Below are positions 48,617 through 49,622 of a DNA stretch of 57,274 nucleotides, one piece after another. The stretch spans positions 1 to 57,274 of the forward strand of contig CANQIX010000003.1 in NCBI GenBank assembly GCA_947624105.1. Reading direction: 5' to 3'. The stretch's first letter is position 1. Every line of letters starts with the position of its first letter. The notes under the pieces are model-generated. The model ran no database searches. It saw only the letters and a program-made list of their open reading frames with translations, and was not told where the DNA came from. Source of the stretch: an uncultured Clostridia bacterium (GTDB lineage: Bacteria > Bacillota > Clostridia > Christensenellales > UBA1242). The position numbers and the translations under genes were made by a program.

Positions 48617-48620
48617 TGTA

Positions 48621-48650
48621 AACTGGCAGAGCAATCTGTCAGTTTTTTAT
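48621..48650 (+). terminator. Rho-independent terminator
   Basis: AACTGGCAGA-gcaa-TCTGTCAGTTTTTTA. Confidence 0.8.
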
Positions 48651-48700: not shown

Positions 48701-48729
48701 TTGATTTTTGCCAGGGTCTGTGATATACT
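48701..48729 (+). promoter_or_regulatory. Sigma-A promoter of smpB
   Basis: TTGATT, 17-bp spacer, TATACT. Confidence 0.6.
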
Positions 48730-48749: not shown

Positions 48750-49205
48750 GTGGAAATCAAGGCAAACAACAAAAAAGCGTATTTTAATTATTTCATTTCC
48801 GATTGTGTAGAGGCTGGTATCGAACTTAAAGGCAGCGAAGTGAAGTCGGTAAGAGCGGGCGGCGTAAGCATTTTGGATAGTTTTGTCGACATAAAAAACG
48901 GCGAGATGTATCTTAAAAATGCCTATATAAAACCTTACGAAAAGACAACAGCGTTTAAGGTTGAAGAGCGCCGAAACAGAAAACTTTTACTTCACAAAGA
49001 GCAAATTTTGAAGTTTGAACGTGCCACAAAGGAAAAGGGGCTTACCATTGTTCCAACAAAAGTCTATATAAACAAGGCAGGAAAAGTTAAGGTTGAAGTT
49101 GGACTTGCAAGAGGTAAAAAGTTGTATGATAAGCGCCAAACCCTTAAGGATAGACAAGTGAAACGAGATATCGAGCGCTATCCAATCCGTCATGGGGGTG
49201 ATTAA
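48750..49205 (+). CDS. smpB: SsrA-binding protein SmpB (GTG start)
   Basis: NNKKAYFNYFISDCVEAGIELKGSEVKSVRAGGVSILDSF; KGLTIVPTKVYI; KKLYDKRQTLKDRQVKRDIER. Confidence 0.95.
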   Translation: MEIKANNKKAYFNYFISDCVEAGIELKGSEVKSVRAGGVSILDSFVDIKNGEMYLKNAYIKPYEKTTAFKVEERRNRKLLLHKEQILKFERATKEKGLTIVPTKVYINKAGKVKVEVGLARGKKLYDKRQTLKDRQVKRDIERYPIRHGGD

Positions 49206-49588
49206 GTTTCGACACAGTTAATTTCGCAAAACACAAAGCATGTGGCGTCTTTCGCCTAAAACAAGAAAACAAATAAACGCAGAAGAAAATTCTAATGCAA
49301 CAACTCTTGCTTATGCTTATGCTTATGCTGCCTAAGTTAGGAGTTACTTGCGCCTGATTAGAGCATATCTAATCCATCGTCATTTTGGTATGCCTACAAA
49401 ATGTTAGGTGTCAGACTAGGCAAAAATTTTATGCAAAGTTGTCCTTGTATGCGTAAAAAATTTTAAGGAATTGTTTTAGAAGTTTGTTTGCGGACCACTC
49501 TAAAATGAAACAAAAACACAAACTAAACATGTAGAAAAGTTTTGTTAAGTAACTATGGACTCGGGAGCGTAACCCGACACCTCCACCA
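49194..49588 (+). ncRNA. ssrA: Transfer-messenger RNA
   Basis: 5' GGGGGTGATTAAGTTTCGAC; 3' GGACTCGGGAGCGTAACCCGACACCTCCACCA; acceptor GGGGGUG pairs with CACCUCC; internal tag ORF ending TAA. Confidence 0.95.
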
Positions 49589-49592
49589 AAAA

Positions 49593-49622
49593 AGAACCAC
49601 AAAATTGTGGCTCTTTTTTTTA
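49593..49622 (+). terminator. Rho-independent terminator of ssrA
   Basis: CCACAA-aa-TTGTGG followed by ctcttttttttt. Confidence 0.85.

Follow-up and report, generated by a model that had tools for sequence, protein, structure and literature searches.

Within the window, i.e., the whole stretch of 57,274 nucleotides that was analyzed, a tmRNA gene (ssrA) occupies positions 49194-49588 of the plus strand and is adjoined by the gene of its partner protein SmpB (smpB, 48750-49205, plus strand), an open reading frame with a GTG start whose 151-residue product ends ...RYPIRHGGD and is up to 77% identical to the SmpB of relatives. The tmRNA was identified through a match to RF00023 that spans model positions 1-374 and has a score of 121.3 bits (E = 6.6e-47), above the gathering score of 47. 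Its ends pair in a tRNA-Ala-like acceptor stem of 7 bp, GGGGGTG/CACCTCC, with the G3-U pair, followed by ACCA, so that the CCA is encoded. A proposed pseudoknot PK1 (49244-49266, plus strand), traced by eye in the sequence and in a 15-row alignment, would be formed by GGCG/CGCC and TCTT/AAGA directly 5′ of the resume codon. The full-length match, the acceptor stem with its G3-U, the tag frame between pseudoknots and the adjoining smpB are all as in standard one-piece tmRNAs of the RF00023 type, whereas the window tmRNA differs from these in a tag of 18 residues with an AYAYAY run, the commonest tag length database-wide being 10 residues (PMC11915505), and in its escape from ARAGORN, which made no tmRNA call at 49194-49588 in the window. 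Since this tmRNA is missed by ARAGORN, automatic annotation of the genus may lack ssrA.

The tag frame (49279-49335, plus strand) starts at the resume codon GCA (49279-49281), which is directly preceded by ATAAAC, and runs for 18 codons to the stop TAA (49333-49335), giving AEENSNATTLAYAYAYAA, with an alanine resume codon and a hydrophobic xAA end; the sequence-only reading had arrived at the same frame. Another possible resume codon, GCA at 49297, was dropped, as it lacks the ATAAAC context common to the genus. That context, NNAAAC-GCN, was the same across the 103 tmRNAs extracted from the genus, and, because 102 of the 103 frames end in xAA although the extraction ignored the tag end, the ends themselves are independent support for the resume codon. 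Tandem Repeats Finder listed a single period-6 array in the window, the perfect tandem (TGCTTA)x3.7 at 49308-49329 (plus strand, 100% match), and it is this array that encodes AYAYAY. No tandem in the other tags of the set exceeds 14 nt, making the window's the longest, and the perfect (GCTTAT)3 is private to the window among the 103. The window apparently belongs to a metagenome bin (50 contigs, with MAGs as relatives), a caveat to be read beside the fact that a repeat of 22 nt is within the reach of short reads.

The genus, which includes Candidatus Caccovivens, was sampled with 112 genomes, the window's among them. RF00023 detected a tmRNA in 104, and 103 tags were extracted by an AAAC-type context followed by G(C/G)N at 75-120 nt, with a length bound and an unconstrained tag end. 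In the other eight genomes (G051, G014, G030, G022, G114, G059, G046 and G055, one of them 99% complete) there was no RF00023 match at E ≤ 1e-20; their tmRNA is either missing, or permuted, or hidden by a gap in the assembly. The tags are 10-23 residues long, with a mean of 15.5 and a commonest length of 17, and they end in CAA (33), YAA (17), VAA (16), AAA (14), MAA (12), IAA (6), FAA (3), LAA (1) or YAC (1). Counted on a tmRNA tree built without the tag, the minimum number of changes was at least 12 for YAA, at least 31 for residue -3 and at least 30 for tag length. A long tag ending in YAA is therefore ordinary in this genus, and neither the YAA end nor the 18 codons that had been flagged as unusual from the sequence alone turned out to be so; the statement behind the flag, that known tags have 8-15 residues, is fair for bacteria at large but not for these relatives. 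The comparison with the ssrA tags of related genomes that had been proposed as a check thus left (GCTTAT)3 as the one feature restricted to the window. In this genus, both the length of the tag and the residue ahead of Ala-Ala drift so fast that, as a caution, LAA should not be taken as a rule.

Tag codons had a pN/pS of ~0.33 over 40 close pairs, implying that the peptide is under some constraint, and AY units recur elsewhere in the genus, singly or doubly, in ETLAYAA, ALAYAA, SSYAYAA and NAYAYAC. A core, NVV(S/R)(M/F/L), is conserved in the middle of many tags (e.g., L046, L066 and L083) and lost in the window; it is a candidate adaptor-binding motif. The tag of G122 (locus L274), AEKEDNVTTMNAYAYAC, is Cys-terminal and is the sole one of the 103 without a terminal Ala-Ala.

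As for how the window's tag came about, the window falls within a clade of 15 genomes that has full support (100/100), and 13 of the 15 tags end in MPCAA, the exceptions being those of the window and of G122 (NAYAYAC). The nearest tags, from G105 and G117, read ADKNANNVESMNVMPCAA and are, like the window's, 18 residues long, so the tandem took the place of existing residues and added nothing to the length. The idea of a tag that had grown by repeat expansion could accordingly be discarded, sister tags having 17-18 residues against the window's 18. Local repeat expansion as the origin of the Ala-Tyr run itself fared better: the tandem is perfect at the codon level and missing in the nearest relatives. 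The alignment of the sisters, TTATGCCTTGCGCTGCCTAA, against the window, TTATGCTTATGCTGCCTAA, suggests that a small deletion and substitutions came before the GCTTAT duplication; the simplest path would be small indels and then a slippage duplication of GCTTAT, through which an ancestral tag of the form ...NVVSMNAMPCAA would have exchanged its C-terminal half for LAYAYAYAA. We consider it very probable that this gut Clostridia genus bears an ordinary, functional tmRNA of the standard type, that the window's tag is a lineage-specific rewrite of a long and fast-changing genus tag, and that tagged proteins are degraded by ClpXP. The explanation is built on the tmRNA, its tag frame, the private tandem, the clade context and the presence of ClpX, ClpP and SmpB, and from these we infer slippage and normal ClpXP recognition. 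The tag is, in short, a real but minor variant of its lineage.

That the rewritten tag would be handled in the usual way is suggested by the protease components. The C-terminal Ala-Ala of the degron is kept in the window tag, and the ClpX of the window's genome has kept the pore-1 GYVG, the pore-2 Thr (SLTRDV) and the RKH loop (GRKHPHQE), the same residues that in E. coli read Ala-Ala-COO- (PMC7652416). Since these Ala-Ala-gripping residues are present and the clpP gene adjoins that of ClpX, ordinary ClpXP degradation of tagged proteins via the conserved Ala-Ala is most likely. A counterpoint is the strength of the tag change in the window's lineage, which lost the NVV(S/R) core shared by many tags of the genus, and if there is an adaptor that reads this core, handling of the window's tag could differ. 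It might also be supposed that the Ala-Tyr run is adaptive and forms a different degron, for another protease such as Lon or ClpC. Its model would be the ssrA tags of the Mollicutes (the NYAFA end of Mesoplasma florum), which are likewise longer and alternate aromatic residues and alanine near the C-terminus, and which are read by Lon (PMC9382460); the appearance of AY units more than once in the genus would also fit. Mollicutes, however, lack ClpXP, whereas the window's genome has both ClpX and ClpP, with the recognition loops of ClpX intact and a tag that still terminates in Ala-Ala, and the recurrence of YAA among the xAA ends looks like drift at that residue. An adaptive degron is accordingly very improbable.

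The stronger finding at this locus is the overlap of the two genes, a known arrangement in a new setting that is recurrent and non-degenerate. The first in-frame stop of smpB, TAA at 49203-49205, is at tmRNA positions 10-12, and the smpB codons GGG GGT GAT TAA are at the same time tmRNA positions 1-12, an overlap of 12 nt (49194-49205, plus strand). Because the acceptor stem places the start of the mature tmRNA at 49194, the cut by RNase P is expected exactly between CAT (49191-49193) and GGG. With the stop codon inside the tmRNA, maturation by RNase P should yield an smpB mRNA without a stop, and such a message, once cut, should be a substrate of SmpB's own rescue system.

The overlap was present in 17 of the 100 scorable genomes of the genus (loci in the ranges L039-L091 and L229-L278), and its occurrence in 16 genomes besides the window's rules out an assembly error as its cause. 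The window, G105 and G117 share the 12-nt overlap with the SmpB tail HGGD. In a deep clade, all 14 members have it with the tail (R/G)GR and a length of 11 nt, set by acceptor-stem pairing also in the six-G members, and it was retained throughout although SmpB identity goes down to 53%. On the tmRNA tree built without the tag, two changes were needed, i.e., two origins within the genus. In members without the overlap, the smpB stop is mostly 0-19 nt upstream of the tmRNA, and in a few 59-131 nt. About 30 adjacent smpB-ssrA loci that were read from other families of the order had no overlap. When 391 genomes of Clostridia and 399 of the phylum were scanned with a pattern that needs a K-R-(D/E) SmpB tail, and that hence misses some true cases even within the genus, one family was added beyond the genus, f134, with a 13-nt overlap in three genomes of two genera (L313-L315); SmpB and tmRNA are full length in these, and the tag is a standard one, read as ANNDYALAA. 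Other matches to the pattern were tight but non-overlapping neighbors, e.g., L287, L290, L292, L293 and L321, and the candidate L312 was rejected because it is not an smpB neighbor.

The precedent for this arrangement is the 2014 survey by Hudson, Lau and Williams, in which the overlap was found only in Carsonella and the implied feedback was pointed out (PMC4131195); our literature search found no later report of an smpB/ssrA overlap. In Carsonella too, the smpB coding sequence runs into ssrA, and an smpB message without a stop is the expected result of maturation. Carsonella, however, is a degenerate endosymbiont of insects whose SmpB is without the C-terminal tail, whereas the present genomes combine a full-length SmpB with an intact tmRNA and have a short, fixed overlap (11-13 nt) that recurs in no fewer than three lineages of Bacillota. 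The overlap thereby shifts from a curiosity of a decaying endosymbiont to a recurrent arrangement of intact genes, in which self-regulation of a rescue cofactor through a stop-less processed message becomes testable.

Transcription of the region has a bearing on what the overlap might do. The genes ahead of ssrA are a putative secG, a putative RNase R gene, both named from their translations, and smpB. A terminator-like hairpin (48620-48645, plus strand) is at the end of the RNase R gene, a promoter-like site, TTGATT-17-TATACT with a TG before the -10 (48701-48729, plus strand), is just upstream of smpB, and a second terminator-like hairpin (49597-49617, plus strand; stem 49597-49610 plus a T run) follows ssrA; in the window no terminator was found between smpB and ssrA. 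With six promoter-like sites found against 3.5 expected, the 48701-48729 site is weak alone, but most relatives inspected have a comparable site at the same place, and a pair of the TTGAAA-TATAAT type is conserved directly 5′ of smpB in almost every member of the 14-genome clade. The site is probably the promoter of an smpB-ssrA unit, a layout in which smpB transcripts would contain the tmRNA; an ssrA promoter inside smpB is a possible alternative. In L043, L053, L062 and others of the 14-genome clade, the -10 box TATAATG shares bases with a potential smpB ATG. The transcript start is therefore probably a few bases ahead of a GTG or ATG located further in, and smpB may be nearly leaderless in those members.

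The reading of the overlap that we lean towards is a neutral one, in which the smpB stop was lost and translation runs on, at little cost, until it meets another in-frame stop within the 5′ end of the tmRNA. Nearly all members of the genus have smpB and ssrA within 20 nt of each other, with genes 0-15 nt apart and the next stops, TAA or TAG, at tmRNA positions 9-13; stops are abundant in the 5′ end of tmRNA, and where the genes do not overlap, the place of the stop varies freely from member to member. Less easily accommodated is the retention in 14 of 14 genomes that have diverged deeply, even though a single tail substitution could bring back a stop upstream. It is this fixation, with SmpB diverging so far, that favors a feedback circuit in which a rising capacity for trans-translation lowers the output of SmpB: RNase P maturation would leave a non-stop smpB mRNA, the SmpB made from the cut message would be tagged and destroyed, and full-length SmpB would come solely from the uncut precursor. 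The occurrence of 11-13 nt overlaps in three lineages, the terminator-free smpB-ssrA gap, the promoter-like site directly 5′ of smpB, which stands out best in the 14-genome clade, and the statement of the same idea for Carsonella (PMC4131195) are in its favor as well. Most of the genus, however, lacks the overlap and has its stops 0-19 nt upstream, losing the upstream stop may make no difference if the message is translated before it is processed, and ssrA may have a promoter of its own within smpB. The circuit is consequently a tentative proposal, with rather less than an even chance. Its wider form, that trans-translation exerts direct negative feedback on smpB in several Bacillota lineages, with translation and maturation mutually exclusive because ribosomes ending smpB sit on the acceptor stem of the tmRNA, is somewhat more doubtful still.

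If it were true, the feedback would set the level of what is possibly the only non-stop rescue system of the genus. RqcH, present in >90% of Firmicutes (PMC11633108), was over the PF05833 cut-off in none of the 112 genus genomes, and the B. subtilis control was found. Two RF-1 domain proteins are encoded in the window's genome, both by open frames of 367 codons; they fit RF1 and RF2 and so leave no ArfB. From the RqcH and ArfB checks, trans-translation may be the sole known non-stop rescue in the genus. A related case is E. coli arfA, which, according to PMC10107115 and PMC4131195, is also a rescue-factor gene whose mRNA is made non-stop by RNA processing and is thereby under trans-translation control. 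ArfA, however, is a backup factor whose message is cut by RNase III, whereas here the message affected would be that of SmpB itself and the predicted cut is by RNase P.
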